A stretch of 27,918 bases of DNA from a virus. The position numbers and the translations under genes are program-made. This document shows, one piece after another, positions 217-12,488 of this stretch. Within the stretch, counting starts at the first letter, position 1. Each line of letters begins with the position of its first letter. The notes beneath the pieces were generated by a model, which saw nothing but the letters and a program-made list of their open reading frames with translations, was not told the DNA's origin and did not search any database. Where the stretch lies: the IMG/VR virus record IMGVR_UViG_3300033146_002360, positions 1-27,918 of that record. One strand, given 5' to 3'.

Positions 217-247
217 AAGATTAGTTTGAAATATATTAATAACACTA

Positions 248-264
248 TTTAGAACCATTCTAAA
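248..264. promoter_or_regulatory. Recurring operator-like palindrome, copy A
   Basis: TTTAGAA-CCA-TTCTAAA, with perfect 7-bp arms. The same element occurs at 4086, 5692 and 12416, always just before an early transcription unit. Here its centre (256) lies 45 bp upstream of the -7 element chosen at 301. A binding site for a phage regulator is inferred; candidate proteins encoded here are the HTH protein at 4177, the Cro-like protein at 6865 and the KilA-N protein at 12515. Confidence 0.7.
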
Positions 265-276
265 CAATCCTGTACA

Positions 277-308
277 TTTGCAGAATTAAATAACATTTTA
301 TATAATTG
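277..308 (+). promoter_or_regulatory. Promoter of the primase-helicase operon
   Basis: TTTG at 277-280, then 20 bp, then TATAATTG at 301-308, one mismatch from the Bacteroidetes -7 consensus TAnnTTTG. Transcription would start near 313-316, a few bases before the first stem of the structured leader at 321. An alternative -7 element, TACATTTG, is at 273-280 and matches the consensus perfectly. It lacks a good TTTG upstream, and its -33 region would then lie inside the palindrome at 248-264. Confidence 0.55.
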
Positions 309-320
309 TAATTCATTTGA

Positions 321-406
321 AAGCCAAACAAACGAAATTTGCACCCATAAATTTACACGTTACGGACGGTTTGGCTTCCTAAATGGCGTGTTTTTTTTAT
401 GGGTGT
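321..406 (+). promoter_or_regulatory. Structured 5' leader with pseudoknot-like stems
   Basis: Three pairs of complementary segments interlock. AAGCCAAAC (321-329) pairs with GTTTGGCTT (369-377). CACCCATAAA (342-351) pairs with TTTATGGGTG (396-405). ACACGTTA (355-362) pairs with 384-391, counting two G-U pairs. The second and third pairs nest into one long hairpin whose 21-nt loop holds the 3' half of the first pair, so all three together make an H-type pseudoknot. The T-run at 391-398 follows the inner hairpin and could serve as an attenuator. It lies between the promoter and the start codon at 424. A riboswitch, a protein-binding leader or a replication origin are all possible; I do not recognise a known family. 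Confidence 0.6.
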
Positions 407-423
407 TTTAATTTAAAATCATT

Positions 424-1308
424 ATGAAAATTCAAGTTTTCACATCAAATATAAAGTCAGTAAGACCAATTGCAGAAATTGATTTTGATAGATTTATAAA
501 TGCGATAGGACAAATGAAACCCGAACTTAAAAAAGTTTATGAGGACATTAAACAGGCTGAAATTGATGGAGACTTGAAGAAAAAAGGAGAATTAAAGACA
601 AAGCTATATTATTTTGTTCCGTGTGTTTATGTTGACCCTAAAGGAAGAAGGTCTTATAAAGATATTCAAACATTTAACGGAATATTACACTTGGATTTTG
701 ACCATATAGACAATGCAGAGGAGTTTAAGTATTATTTATTTGAAAAATACGATTTTGTAATAGCTGCTTGGGTTTCTGCAAGTGGAAAAGGAGTTAAGGC
801 ACTAGTTAATATTCCTATTGCAGAATCAGTAAAAGAATTTAAAGCATATTTTTGGGGACTTGCAAAAATTATGCAACAATATAAGGGTTTTGATACTGCA
901 CCGCAAAACGCTGTATTGCCTTTATTTTTAAGTCCTGATGATAATATATTGTTCACAAAAGATTATTCAATATGGACAAAAAAAGGAGTTAATCCTAAAG
1001 ATATAGTAAGACAAGCGGTTGTTTTTAAACATGATTATTCCAAAGATGAAAAATATAAATCGTGGGCAATTTCAAACACAGAAAAAGGAATAAAAAAGAT
1101 TTTTGACAATGGACACCCACAATTAAGGGCAGCAGCATTTAGTTTAGGTGGGTATGTTGGTGGTGGTTATATTTCTGAAATAGAAGCTATTAGTTTAATG
1201 GATAGTTTGATTAATAGTAATTATTATTTGTCTCAAAAGCCTGAAACTTACATGAAAACAAGTAGAACGATGATAAAAAAAGGACAATTTTTCCCAATTA
1301 ATTTTTAA
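424..1308 (+). CDS. BT4734/VirE_N-type archaeo-eukaryotic primase
   Basis: 294 aa. Probable primase of the archaeo-eukaryotic superfamily, BT4734-like branch, which would make primers for phage DNA replication. Visible motifs: a strand with the acidic metal-binding pair HLDFDH (residues 89-94), then SASGKGVKALV (118-128), the small-residue/Gly/Lys loop that holds nucleotide in this branch. The final LFLSPDD (167-173) sits where the third motif is expected. There is no helicase domain in the same chain; the SF3 helicase is encoded two genes downstream, whereas in many Bacteroidetes elements the two are fused. The start follows a long structured leader, and the gene is the first of its operon. 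The family is fairly sure; enzymatic activity is inferred. Confidence 0.75.
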   Translation: MKIQVFTSNIKSVRPIAEIDFDRFINAIGQMKPELKKVYEDIKQAEIDGDLKKKGELKTKLYYFVPCVYVDPKGRRSYKDIQTFNGILHLDFDHIDNAEEFKYYLFEKYDFVIAAWVSASGKGVKALVNIPIAESVKEFKAYFWGLAKIMQQYKGFDTAPQNAVLPLFLSPDDNILFTKDYSIWTKKGVNPKDIVRQAVVFKHDYSKDEKYKSWAISNTEKGIKKIFDNGHPQLRAAAFSLGGYVGGGYISEIEAISLMDSLINSNYYLSQKPETYMKTSRTMIKKGQFFPINF

Positions 1309-1314
1309 AAAAGT

Positions 1315-1680
1315 ATGAAAAATTTAGATAAAAAATACAATAAAATAGTAAATAAATATTGCAAAATATTTGCAAAGAAACATGAAATTTATTTTGATGG
1401 GTGGGTAGCCGATAGAGTAGGAGAAATTGCTAATTTTGGAGATTATTATTTTGATTTTCGAGAAATTAAATTTTGCATTGACAAAGATATTTCATTTGAT
1501 TATTTAAGTGATTGGTATTTTTACTGTGTTGAGTTTCACAAAACTGCGGATTATAATTTTGAAAGTTATTGCAAATTAAGACAAGATTTTGAATATAAAC
1601 AAGGATTTGGATTTGTTTTGTTGGAATTTGAAAAATATTTATTAAAGTTAAAATTAGAAAGTAGTTATGATCGAATTTAA
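1315..1680 (+). CDS. Unknown 121-aa protein between primase and helicase
   Basis: 121 aa, rich in Tyr, Phe, Asp and Lys, with no motif I recognise. The N-terminus is a basic helix followed by aromatic-rich stretches (GDYYFDFREIKF near 41-52). It starts 6 bases after the primase stop and its last codons overlap the helicase start (1667) by 14 bases, so the three are translationally coupled. It might be a spacer or accessory subunit of a split primase-helicase, but the only support is gene order. Confidence 0.7.
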   Translation: MKNLDKKYNKIVNKYCKIFAKKHEIYFDGWVADRVGEIANFGDYYFDFREIKFCIDKDISFDYLSDWYFYCVEFHKTADYNFESYCKLRQDFEYKQGFGFVLLEFEKYLLKLKLESSYDRI

Positions 1681-3211
1681 AAAGCCTGAATACAATCCTG
1701 ATTACAACCCAGTTGATTACTATAATGAGTTTAAATCAGAACATGGACTATCTTTTTTTGAAAGTAGCATTAAAAATGTAACACTATCACAAAAAGACGG
1801 AAAGTATTCTGATACAGATGCAACTTATATTTTTGAGAATGGTTTTTTAAAAGCAAATAAACCGAATCAAAGGAAAATAGAACCAAGTATAAAATATTCT
1901 CCATTTATGTTGCTTGCAAAATACAAGTTTAAAGGAAACTATTATGCAGCCTATACGTGGGTAGCATCTGAATTTTTAAACAAACAAATTCCTTATATTC
2001 GTGTTGGTGTGGATTATTTTAAACAAATTTCAAAACCTGATAGATATTCTATTGATAGGATTGAATTAAAAAGGTGGAAAAAAGACGAAATTAAAGAAGA
2101 CCACGGAAAGTCAATATTAAATCATATAGTTAAGTACGATGATTTCATTATGCAGCCTGATAATAAAGAGTACCAAGCTGTTGTTGATAATATGTATAAT
2201 ATGTATTATGAATTTGCACACAAACCTCACAAAGGCAAATGGATATGGACAAAAAGAATTTTAGAACACGTTTTCGGAGTTCAATATAAACAAGGTTTAA
2301 AGTATTTGCAAATATTATATTTGTATCCAAAACAGATATTACCAATTTTGGTTTTAGCATCAAAAACAAGAAGTACAGGTAAAAGTACATTTTTAGATTG
2401 GATGTCGATACTATTTGGCGGTAACATGGTAGTTATTAATCCGTCAGATATTACCAATCAATTTAATTCGAGCTATGCACACGCAAACATAGTCGGAATA
2501 GAGGAAACAGTAACAGACAAAAGTAGTACTGTTGAGAAATTAAAAGCACTTTCAACAAATAAATTTATAAATCTGAATAGAAAATTTGTAGATAATTCAA
2601 AAATTCCATTTTTCGCGAAATTCATCGTAACAACCAACGATGAGAAGAAATTTATGAGAATAGACGATGAAGAAATTCGTTTTTGGGTGCGAAAATTAGA
2701 AAAACCAAAGTTTCATAATACAAAAATAGATATGGAACTAATAAAAGAAATTCCTGCATTTTTAGAATATTTAGAAACATTGGCAGTTCCTGATTTTAGT
2801 AAGTCAAGAATGGTTTTTACAGAGGACGAAATTATAACAGATGAGTTAATAAAAGTTAAAGAAGAGAGTAAGCCTGAATTATATAAGGATTTAAAAGAAA
2901 AAATAATTTATTTCTTTGGAAAACACCCTGAATATTCAGAGTTTTATGCCCACCCTGTGGACTTCGCAAGTCGGTGGTATGATAGGAAAGGAAACATAGA
3001 AGCACCATATATACGAACTATTCTAAAAGACCATTTCAATATGAAGCCTGAACCAAAGCCTATTTATTATTTTGCGTTCGGAAATGGAGAGGGAATAACA
3101 CAAAGAGCTTTTAAATTTTTACGTAGTGATTTTGTGGATAGTCCTGTTGTTCCTGAAACTATTGAAATTGATAATGAAATTATAGAAGTTAATCAAGATT
3201 TACCATTTTAA
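1667..3211 (+). CDS. SF3-type replicative helicase (primase-helicase C-terminal half)
   Basis: 514 aa. Helicase superfamily 3 ATPase of the D5/DUF5906 kind used by phages and plasmids to unwind DNA at the fork. Walker A is SKTRSTGKST (232-241), Walker B is NIVGIEE (274-280) and motif C is KFIVTTND (318-325) with its sensor Asn; RIDDEEIRFWVRKL (331-344) follows with a basic finger. About 220 N-terminal residues carry no recognised domain. The C-terminus is unusual: it ends NQDLPF after an acidic run, like the tip that SSB proteins use to bind partners; the phage SSB at 13152 also ends DLPF. It overlaps the gene before it and is followed after 2 bases by the D12 methyltransferase. Confidence 0.85.
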   Translation: MIEFKKPEYNPDYNPVDYYNEFKSEHGLSFFESSIKNVTLSQKDGKYSDTDATYIFENGFLKANKPNQRKIEPSIKYSPFMLLAKYKFKGNYYAAYTWVASEFLNKQIPYIRVGVDYFKQISKPDRYSIDRIELKRWKKDEIKEDHGKSILNHIVKYDDFIMQPDNKEYQAVVDNMYNMYYEFAHKPHKGKWIWTKRILEHVFGVQYKQGLKYLQILYLYPKQILPILVLASKTRSTGKSTFLDWMSILFGGNMVVINPSDITNQFNSSYAHANIVGIEETVTDKSSTVEKLKALSTNKFINLNRKFVDNSKIPFFAKFIVTTNDEKKFMRIDDEEIRFWVRKLEKPKFHNTKIDMELIKEIPAFLEYLETLAVPDFSKSRMVFTEDEIITDELIKVKEESKPELYKDLKEKIIYFFGKHPEYSEFYAHPVDFASRWYDRKGNIEAPYIRTILKDHFNMKPEPKPIYYFAFGNGEGITQRAFKFLRSDFVDSPVVPETIEIDNEIIEVNQDLPF

Positions 3212-4038: not shown

Positions 4039-4085
4039 TGGAAGACTTAACAAAATTAAAGGTAAAATCCAATTAAAAAAAGCTA

Positions 4086-4102
4086 TTTAGAATGATTCTA
4101 AA
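4086..4102. promoter_or_regulatory. Recurring operator-like palindrome, copy B
   Basis: TTTAGAA-TGA-TTCTAAA, perfect 7-bp arms that extend to 9 bp with the flanking TA on each side. Its centre (4094) is 44 bp upstream of the -7 element at 4138, almost the same spacing as copy A. Being symmetrical with A-rich left and T-rich right flanks, it might also act as a weak terminator after the methyltransferase gene; recurrence at promoters makes an operator more likely. Confidence 0.7.
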
Positions 4103-4113
4103 TAAGCTATTTA

Positions 4114-5675: not shown

Positions 5676-5691
5676 GTTTAAATACGTTTTA

Positions 5692-5708
5692 TTTAGAATG
5701 ATTATAAA
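5692..5708. promoter_or_regulatory. Recurring operator-like palindrome, copy C
   Basis: TTTAGAA-TGA-TTATAAA, one mismatch in the right arm. The core is the exact reverse complement of copy D at 12416, and the similarity continues for several bases on both sides. Its centre (5700) is 66 bp upstream of the -7 element at 5766, compared with 44-45 bp for copies A and B. Confidence 0.65.
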
Positions 5709-5741
5709 TAAGCACATTTGAGTAAAATAAATGGGTTTTTA

Positions 5742-9343: not shown

Positions 9344-9513
9344 TGATGCAAGCATATTATAAAGTCCAAGATGTAATTAACAGTTGCAGTAAAATTAATC
9401 ATTTTACTGCAACTCGAAATATGATTTTAAATTTTCATAAGATGTATAATGATATTGATTTATATGTTATTTTGGAAAATAGGTATGAAAATAAAATATC
9501 GGAATTTGTATGA
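9343..9513 (+). CDS. Unknown 56-aa protein
   Basis: The start overlaps the previous stop (TGATG) and its stop overlaps the helicase start (ATGA at 9510-9513), so it is translationally coupled on both sides. It reads MMQAYYKVQDVINSCSKI and goes on with a Tyr/Asn-rich helical stretch. It has no recognisable motif. Its neighbours are a DnaA-like DNA binder and a helicase, so a role in DNA replication is possible but unproven. Confidence 0.6.
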   Translation: MMQAYYKVQDVINSCSKINHFTATRNMILNFHKMYNDIDLYVILENRYENKISEFV

Positions 9514-11562: not shown

Positions 11563-12422
11563 ATGTTTTGAGCTTATTTAATGGTATGAATACAGGACGG
11601 CAAGCACTTGAAAATGTAGGCGTAAAAGTAAATAAATACTATTCAAGTGAAATAAAACCTTATGCAATAGAATTAACACAACATCATTTTTCAGATACTA
11701 TTCAATTAGGAGACATTAATAATTGGAAATCATGGAATATTGATTATTCAAAAATTGATTTAATTTTAAGCGGTTCTCCTTGCCAAGATTTAAGTATTGC
11801 AGGAAATAGAGCCGGGTTAAATGGTTCTAAAAGTTCTTTGTTTTGGGTTTTTATTGATATTTTAAATCATGTGAAAAAGTTAAATCCAAATGTTTTATTT
11901 TTACAGGAAAATGTAGGAAGTGCTTCTAAAAAAGATATTGGTACAATGTCAATAGCTTTAGGATTGTACCCGGTACGTATTAACAGTAAATTATTAACCG
12001 CACAGTTAAGAGACCGTTATTATTGGACAAATATAAAAACAAGAACATCTTTATTTGATATTATTACAGATATTCCACAACCAAGAGACAAAAAAATATA
12101 TTTAAAAGATATTATTGAAAATGGATTTACTTATAGAAAAAAAAGCCGTGCTATCTTAGAACGCTATTATTCAGACAAATATAAAGATGAATTTTCAGAA
12201 AAAGCACAACGATATTATAATAAAAGAATGAATGTAGGAGGTTTTACAACATATATAGAAACAAGCAACAATCTATTAAGAGCGTTTACGCAAATAGAAC
12301 TTGAACGATTACAGGGTTTTTCTGATGGTTACACTTCAATTTTAAGTTATAATCATGCTGCTTCATTATTAGGAGACGGGTGGACTTTGCCTGTTATAGA
12401 ACATATATTTTCTTATTTATAA
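11559..12422 (+). CDS. C5-cytosine DNA methyltransferase (Dnmt3/phage type)
   Basis: 287 aa. Methylates carbon 5 of cytosine. Motif I LSLFNGMNTGRQAL (4-17), motif IV SGSPCQDLSIAG (71-82) with catalytic Cys75, motif VI LFLQENV (113-119), motif VIII QLRDRYYWTN (149-158), then ELERLQGFSDGYT (motif IX) and LLGDGWTLPVIEHIF (motif X). The last two match the Dnmt3-like phage subgroup. The target recognition region is short. No partner nuclease is visible, so it is probably an orphan enzyme that protects or marks phage DNA. Its stop codon lies within the palindrome copy D. Confidence 0.9.
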   Translation: MNVLSLFNGMNTGRQALENVGVKVNKYYSSEIKPYAIELTQHHFSDTIQLGDINNWKSWNIDYSKIDLILSGSPCQDLSIAGNRAGLNGSKSSLFWVFIDILNHVKKLNPNVLFLQENVGSASKKDIGTMSIALGLYPVRINSKLLTAQLRDRYYWTNIKTRTSLFDIITDIPQPRDKKIYLKDIIENGFTYRKKSRAILERYYSDKYKDEFSEKAQRYYNKRMNVGGFTTYIETSNNLLRAFTQIELERLQGFSDGYTSILSYNHAASLLGDGWTLPVIEHIFSYL

Positions 12423-12432
12423 TCATTCTAAA
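12416..12432. promoter_or_regulatory. Recurring operator-like palindrome, copy D
   Basis: TTTATAA-TCA-TTCTAAA, with one arm mismatch. It is the exact reverse complement of the core of copy C, and the arms extend to CTTATTTA and TAAATAAG outside it. Its centre (12424) is 65 bp upstream of the -7 element at 12489, the same distance as copy C. It overlaps the end of the C5 methyltransferase gene. Confidence 0.65.
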
Positions 12433-12488
12433 TAAGAAAAACAAAACATAAGAATTAAAATAAAACAATAACATTAAAAATAAAACAT

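Follow-up and report, generated by a model that had tools for sequence, protein, structure and literature searches.

The Locus and Its Promoter

The DNA analysed here, referred to below as the window, is a linear virus record of 27,918 bases, which also encodes a tape measure gene and a Phage_cap_E-type capsid gene. The features of interest lie around the head of an operon that begins with a gene for a VirE_N / BT4734-like_N replication protein (Table 1). An earlier sequence-only reading had placed the leader discussed below in front of "the primase gene", which was loose: the gene directly after it is the VirE_N gene (PF08800), and the DUF5906 gene of the helicase type lies two genes on. The closest named relatives of the VirE_N gene belong to Flavobacterium and Cellulophaga phages, so the host of the window phage is probably a flavobacterium.

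The operon is preceded by a TTTG element, a spacer of 20 nt, and a second box that differs by one mismatch from TAnnTTTG; TTTG and TAnnTTTG together are what we take to be the Bacteroidota promoter consensus. The second box sits 12 nt upstream of the stem S1 of the leader, where 8–14 nt is the distance that defines the family described below, and the relatives carry the exact TAnnTTTG at the same distance from the leader. Further upstream is a 21-bp palindrome, TATTTAGAATGATTCTAAATA, which occurs at four places in the window (246-266, 4084-4104, 5690-5710, and 12414-12434), giving eight strand matches with at most three mismatches compared with 0.02 expected by chance. Three of these sites lie in gaps preceding plus-strand genes, and one spans the end of a gene. 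The palindrome resembles the operator site of a phage regulator, and the copy just upstream of the leader promoter supports the existence of a regulated promoter there.

Two other features of the window were observed. A short open reading frame (383-427, ATG GCG TGT ... TTA TGA) lies within the leader, with a stop codon that overlaps the start codon at 424 (ATGA); no counterpart was seen in most relatives. At approximately 9382-9416, in a stretch without a long open reading frame, there is a near-perfect 14-bp hairpin, AGTTGCAGTAAAAT...ATTTTACTGCAACT.

Table 1. Features of the leader region and of the genes that follow it in the window.
Feature	Position	Strand	Basis or remark
21-bp palindrome TATTTAGAACCATTCTAAACA, operator-like, upstream of the leader promoter	246..266	.	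8 strand matches at 4 window places
Leader promoter, -33 element TTTG	277..280	+	sequence; sigma-type scan
Leader promoter, -7 element TATAATTG	301..308	+	one mismatch to the Bacteroidota TAnnTTTG box
P0, 5' strand UUCAUUUG	312..319	+	pairs with 329-336, one A.C mismatch; MFE; conserved and covarying in relatives
S1, 5' arm AAGCCAAAC, loop of hairpin 1	321..329	+	pairs with 369-377
P0, 3' strand CAAACGAA	329..336	+	MFE
A/U-rich linker between the two hairpins (330-340 without P0)	337..340	+	sequence; A-rich linker in relatives
S2, 5' strand GCACCCAUAAA	341..351	+	pairs with 396-406
S3, 5' strand ACACGTTA (= ACACGUUA)	355..362	+	pairs with 384-391
GG able to pair with CC 378-379, closing the kissing loop	364..365	+	
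S1, 3' arm GTTTGGCTT (= GUUUGGCUU), loop of hairpin 2	369..377	+	
CC pairing with GG 364-365, adjoining the S1 3' arm	378..379	+	
S3, 3' strand TGGCGTGT (= UGGCGUGU)	384..391	+	
U-run of 8	391..398	+	sequence
S2, 3' strand UUUAUGGGUGU, then UUUUAAUUU	396..406	+	
VirE_N / BT4734-like_N replication protein, operon gene 1	424..1308	+	PF08800 6.5e-11; phrog_23402 3.6e-82
Small gene, same operon as the VirE_N gene	1315..1680	+	weak phrog_35741 match
DUF5906 / primase-helicase-type gene	1667..3211	+	PF19263 1.1e-16; phrog_1156 'DNA primase' 1.2e-13

The Fold of the Leader

Three interlocking stems had been claimed between the promoter and the start codon, and all three can be read in the sequence: S1 (321-329/369-377) consists of nine Watson-Crick pairs, S2 (342-351/396-405) of ten, or eleven when the G.T pair 341-406 is included, and S3 (355-362/384-391) of eight, two of which are G.U. 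Since S3 is nested in S2 and the 3' arm of S1 lies in the loop of S3, S1 crosses both of the other stems. These stems had been described as an H-type pseudoknot; the crossing does exist, but P0, an additional hairpin, holds the 5' arm of S1 in its loop, so that a kissing-loop complex is the better description. To judge from its letters, therefore, the window leader is a kissing complex of two hairpins and not a bare H-type pseudoknot. P0 is already present in the minimum free energy (MFE) fold of the leader, where one A.C mismatch makes it weaker than in the relatives, and its pair 319-329 competes with S1 for base 329.

Lone complementarities of 8–10 bp are not rare in 290 nt, and a competing 10-bp pair exists here (193-202/371-380), which raises the question of chance complementarity in an A+T-rich intergenic stretch. 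A combined pseudoknot score, in which the energy of S1 is added to the MFE of the remainder with the S1 arms held single, gave -39.7 for positions 316-411; the 1000 dinucleotide shuffles averaged -21.4 ± 5.8, and none scored as well. The leader is the top-scoring 96-nt stretch of the 27.9-kb record on both strands; its nested part alone has a z of -2.66, and its G+C content is 40% (321-405) versus 21% in the preceding 137-320. The observed fold thus stands well above chance, and chance complementarity, against which the covariation and the descriptor controls given below also speak, has a negligible probability; what refutes it is the compensatory changes in the relatives.

No Rfam family matched at gathering score either the window or the loci that have the element, and for the window leader nothing rose above chance at E<=10, so the comparison with Rfam that had been suggested returned no known family. 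Among the self-cleaving ribozymes, HDV-like, twister, pistol, and others gave no Rfam match. The HDV ribozyme has a helix order that differs from the order S1 S2 S3 S1' S3' S2' of the leader. An HDV-like ribozyme, considered because of a resemblance in J4/2, was rejected on the grounds of this order and of the missing Rfam match.

Relatives and Compensatory Changes

The close relatives of the VirE_N gene have no leader at that gene, since the gene sits inside an operon there. This absence was first a candidate refutation and was dropped, as relatives found through the DUF5906 gene (42-49% identity) show leaders at operon heads: nearly all of them carry the element at the head of the operon, directly after a TAnnTTTG box and shortly before an ATG. 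The order of the parts is S1, S2, S3, S1', S3', S2', U-run, with quite different stem sequences, and the 5' arm of S1 forms the loop of the hairpin P0, as in GTTTC[GGTCTCACATTATA]GAAAC.

Fourteen leaders were aligned with MAFFT without structure and counted against the four helices. In this alignment, 98.2% of the cells are paired and 16 of the 32 pairs have changed on both sides, the number of independent events being smaller than the number of cells because many cells are inherited from a few ancestral types. S1 is paired in all 14 leaders, and four of its pairs covary (G-C/A-U, U-A/C-G, C-G/U-A, and C-G/G-C). The paired percentage was reached by none of 500 shuffles, and slid registers are only 29-50% paired. 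Given only the alignment, RNAalifold recovers P0, S2, and S3.

Separate groups add compensatory changes of their own to those of the alignment. The S1 arms are GGTCAGAGC/GCTCTGACC versus GGTCGAAGC/GCTTCGACC in loci L174 and L177, and CTCTCAC/GTGAGAG versus CTACCAC/GTGGTAG in L175 and L176, and in L226 and L235 a single base has been inserted in both arms with the pairing kept. About 20 distinct S1 sequences were gathered, all complementary. The prediction that relatives would keep the pairing through compensatory changes has therefore come true, both in the alignment and in the pairwise groups, and the comparative evidence makes it nearly certain that this family of leader RNAs is real. The homologous leaders also sit directly behind a promoter of the right type (TAnnTTTG).

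The insertion in L226 and L235 also bears on the possibility of a leader-peptide attenuator of the trp type, which short open reading frames crossing the leader in L175, L176, L180, the second copy of L170, L190, and L219 might suggest. The inserted base breaks the reading frame and keeps the pairing, and no comparable frame exists in L174, L177, or phage FCV-1; such an attenuator was rejected as not general for the family and is highly improbable as an explanation of the window leader. A short open reading frame starting M(K/T)IFK was observed in four leaders (L175:2752, L176:2335, L180:2605, and L170:2031), in a subgroup only and not family-wide.

Family Membership and Distribution

Members of the family have an S1 of at least seven Watson-Crick pairs joining two hairpin loops (nine in the window), a P0 hairpin around the 5' arm of S1 (312-319/329-336), and an S2/S3 hairpin that has the 3' arm of S1 in its loop and is followed by a U-run and an ATG (U8 at 391-398, UUUU after S2, and the ATG at 424). 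These features were written as a descriptor made up of the promoter box, P0, S1, the closing pairs by the 3' arm of S1, S2, the U-run, and the ATG, with limits (a U-run of 4, P0 with one mismatch) set so that the window passes. In its strict form, it has a single match in the window when both strands are scanned, namely the leader. It gives 60 matches in the family loci, some of them overlapping, and no match in 170 other viral or genomic loci (2.6 Mb, both strands) or in 6.3 Mb of Markov shuffles.

A covariance model, R1, built from the 14 leaders of one subgroup without S1, scores other subgroups weakly and gave no match to the window leader, so the membership of the latter rests on architecture, context, and the descriptor. 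The linker of the second-copy leader in locus G010 (ACGAAACGAAATTTTAAC) is similar to that of the window (CAAACGAAATTTG). With this architecture and context, there can be little doubt that the window leader belongs to the kissing-loop family, of which sequence similarity is not a defining feature.

The unchanged descriptor was then applied to phages fetched later. It found one place per whole genome in Flavobacterium columnare phage FCL-2 and in Parabacteroides distasonis phage PD691P3, and it also matched the fetched loci of Cellulophaga phages phi13:2 and phi19:3 and of PD691P4, with no further match in 0.83 Mb of later-fetched phage sequence. In FCV-1, 11b, and elemoA, all three of which the descriptor misses, the element is present by inspection. 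FCL-2 and FCV-1 have it at the same locus with completely different letters and the fold kept. The genes after the element in FCL-2 are those of a replication initiation protein and then a primase/helicase, and replication or replication-like genes come next in FCV-1, 11b, PD691P3, phi13:2, phi19:3, and elemoA. In these cultured phages, the element heads the replication module although the replication genes are from different families. Second copies occur between the VirE_N and DUF5906 genes (L170, L178), before a Dcm methylase gene (G018), and before a gene of unknown function (G010); a second copy was sought in the window and not found.

The association with replication modules of different families could mean that the element is part of a replication origin, transcript-primed or single-strand, beside the initiator gene. 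This is very unlikely, given that second copies precede unrelated genes such as those in G018 and G010, that the cumulative GC skew has no consistent turn at the element, and that strand-specific G.U pairs and a U-run before the ATG point to RNA.

The element was not found in phages 6H, RAP44, laban6-1, phi17:1, pippi8-1, and FPSV-S1, nor at the replication locus of Bacteroides phages B124-14, B40-8, BK649P1, and BF698P1. R1 gave one weak match, and none convincing, in one sample of 296 Bacteroidota genomes; the descriptor, the filters of which are stricter and lose weak matches, found nothing at this match. Searches of IMG/VR with exact patterns of the S1 region returned only unrelated coding or other matches, and blastn of the leader against phages and plasmids returned only chance matches.

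Two further observations concern other sequences. In the B. fragilis phages B124-14, B40-8, and BF698P1 and in B. ovatus phage BK649P1 (L285, L286, L287, and L292), a short hairpin around CATGGCGGGGTAATACCCGCC or a close variant lies upstream of the replication gene, in the place of the kissing-loop leader. In L052, L058, L062, L063, L064, L071, and L080, AAGCCAAAC and GTTTGGCTT enclose inner hairpins, the letters of which vary while the pairing seems to be kept, followed by TTTATATAA; this conserved element differs from the kissing-loop leader and is possibly another structured RNA.

A Proposed Transcription Attenuator

That a structured leader controls the synthesis of the replication proteins had been put forward from the sequence alone, and this is the best-supported reading: the pairing is kept, the position is promoter-proximal, and replication genes come next. 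More specifically, we propose, with a probability of roughly 0.55, that the leader (approximately 309-423) belongs to a family of cis-acting leader RNAs, not described before, in Bacteroidota phages and acts as a transcription attenuator. The comparison of leaders shows the fold: right after the TAnnTTTG promoter, the transcript forms hairpin 1 (P0), an A-rich linker, and hairpin 2 (S2 outside, S3 inside), with 7–9 bp of pairing between the two loops (S1). S2 and the U-run would constitute an intrinsic terminator, the kissing of its loop by hairpin 1 would set the frequency of read-through by RNA polymerase, and the leader would in this way meter the replication operon. The kissing might act alone, as the put RNA of phage HK022 acts on the polymerase, or with a further protein. 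Attenuation of the replication operon is the most likely of the mechanisms considered, at approximately even odds.

The U-run had already been read as a possible sign of attenuation, in combination with the inner hairpin. Attenuation fits the family, but in the relatives the U-run follows the outer stem S2 and not the inner S3. In most members, S2 is G+C-rich and is followed immediately by 5–7 U. This arrangement is weaker in the window, where S2 is followed only by UUUU-AA-UUU and the U8 lies in the internal loop between S2 and S3, and in FCV-1, where the U-run is UUAACUUUUU, so the terminator is not equally clear everywhere. A standard terminator scan, which allows loops of 3–8 only, found none in the window.

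In L175, L176, and L180, the genes upstream are divergent and no other promoter is visible for the replication operon, so that the polymerase must pass the element to make the replication proteins, an arrangement that argues for an attenuator. No classical competing antiterminator was seen. S1 is compatible with the terminator hairpin and the two can coexist, so the role of S1 is probably to adjust termination and not to prevent it. Recognition of specific bases in the loops is unlikely because their sequence varies while the pairing is kept. A bolder version, which we offer tentatively, is that of an RNA-only device used across phages of the whole phylum. Its 5' hairpin would kiss the loop of a terminator close to the promoter and so decide the transcription of the replication operon, and the freely drifting loop pair would be a private key for each phage and each copy.

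Having its own promoter and, in most members, a terminator-like end, the element could also be a stand-alone phage small RNA of approximately 100 nt, ended by S2 and the U-run and acting in trans, with incidental read-through. This is rather improbable: the element stands ahead of the first replication gene even where the replication genes are unrelated, the loops are hypervariable with no common trans target visible, and, in the divergent contexts, the operon would be left without another visible promoter.

The main rival of the attenuator is control of translation or stability of the repZ kind by the same RNA family, whereby a kissing complex at the 5' end would shield the mRNA or set the access of ribosomes to the start codon. 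P0 begins at about the position where transcription should start, the structure ends 5–30 nt ahead of the ATG in the members, and plasmid replication initiators under the control of leader pseudoknots are on record (ColIb-P9 repZ, as cited in PMC10724649). However, a conserved G+C-rich S2 with a U-run exceeds what such control needs, and a control of the plasmid antisense type lacks support, since no antisense promoter (TTG-N18-22-TAnnTTTG) was found on the other strand within 250 nt in 10 members. Control at this level is therefore unlikely, if less so than the small RNA, and attenuation of transcription is retained as the preferred reading.

Comparison with Known Systems

The closest phage parallel is the put RNA of HK022 (~70 nt), which the account in PMC9378689 presents as a pair of stem-loops that directly follow an early promoter and act in cis on the polymerase. 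It resembles the kissing-loop leaders in being phage-encoded, in its two stem-loops, and in an action in cis on early transcription, which in the leaders would be attenuation; the family, too, has two stem-loops just behind a promoter that would be early to judge from its gene content. As described in that account, put differs in that it keeps sequence similarity and has no reported loop-loop pairing and no U-run of its own. Put has a conserved sequence, binds the zinc-binding domain of the beta' subunit, and causes antitermination at distant terminators, whereas the loops of the kissing-loop family pair and their sequences are hypervariable. The likeness is one of architecture, and binding to the polymerase would be by analogy only.

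Among plasmids, the leader pseudoknots of repZ and repA (IncI-alpha, IncB, and IncL/M, as cited in PMC10724649) also rest on the long-range pairing of a loop, again in the leader of a replication initiator. As portrayed there, that pseudoknot acts as a switch of translation, in competition with an antisense RNA, unlike the family, which has a terminator-like end and no antisense promoter that could be seen. The countertranscript attenuators of plasmid rep genes of the pT181 type, cited in the same article, share a terminator-like hairpin between the promoter and the replication gene and, in the outline given there, differ from the kissing-loop family, which has its kissing partner in cis and no antisense promoter. 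Bacteroid-trp and Flavo-1 (Rfam; PMC2864571) are likewise structured leaders in Bacteroidota, from which the element is set apart by its lack of an Rfam match.

No description of the element was found in the open literature, including a keyword search of the structured-RNA surveys PMC2864571 and PMC8040213, the supplementary tables of which may list it. Leader RNAs, attenuators, and kissing loops have all been described before; what appears to be new is a kissing architecture before phage replication modules.

Significance

It is very likely that the element represents a hitherto undescribed RNA switch for the start of phage DNA copying. Its presence in the cultured phages FCL-2, 11b, phi13:2, phi19:3, elemoA, and PD691P3 makes it directly testable. 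With loops that vary almost freely and nevertheless stay paired, the family would provide kissing pairs as a natural library, and, if the RNA-only device were true, these loop pairs could serve as orthogonal switches in Bacteroidota. Phages of Bacteroidota abound in water and in the gut, and little work has been done on their regulatory RNA. That a single fold stands in front of unrelated replication genes in phages of Flavobacterium, Cellulophaga, and Parabacteroides suggests a shared means of timing or metering the replication of phage DNA.
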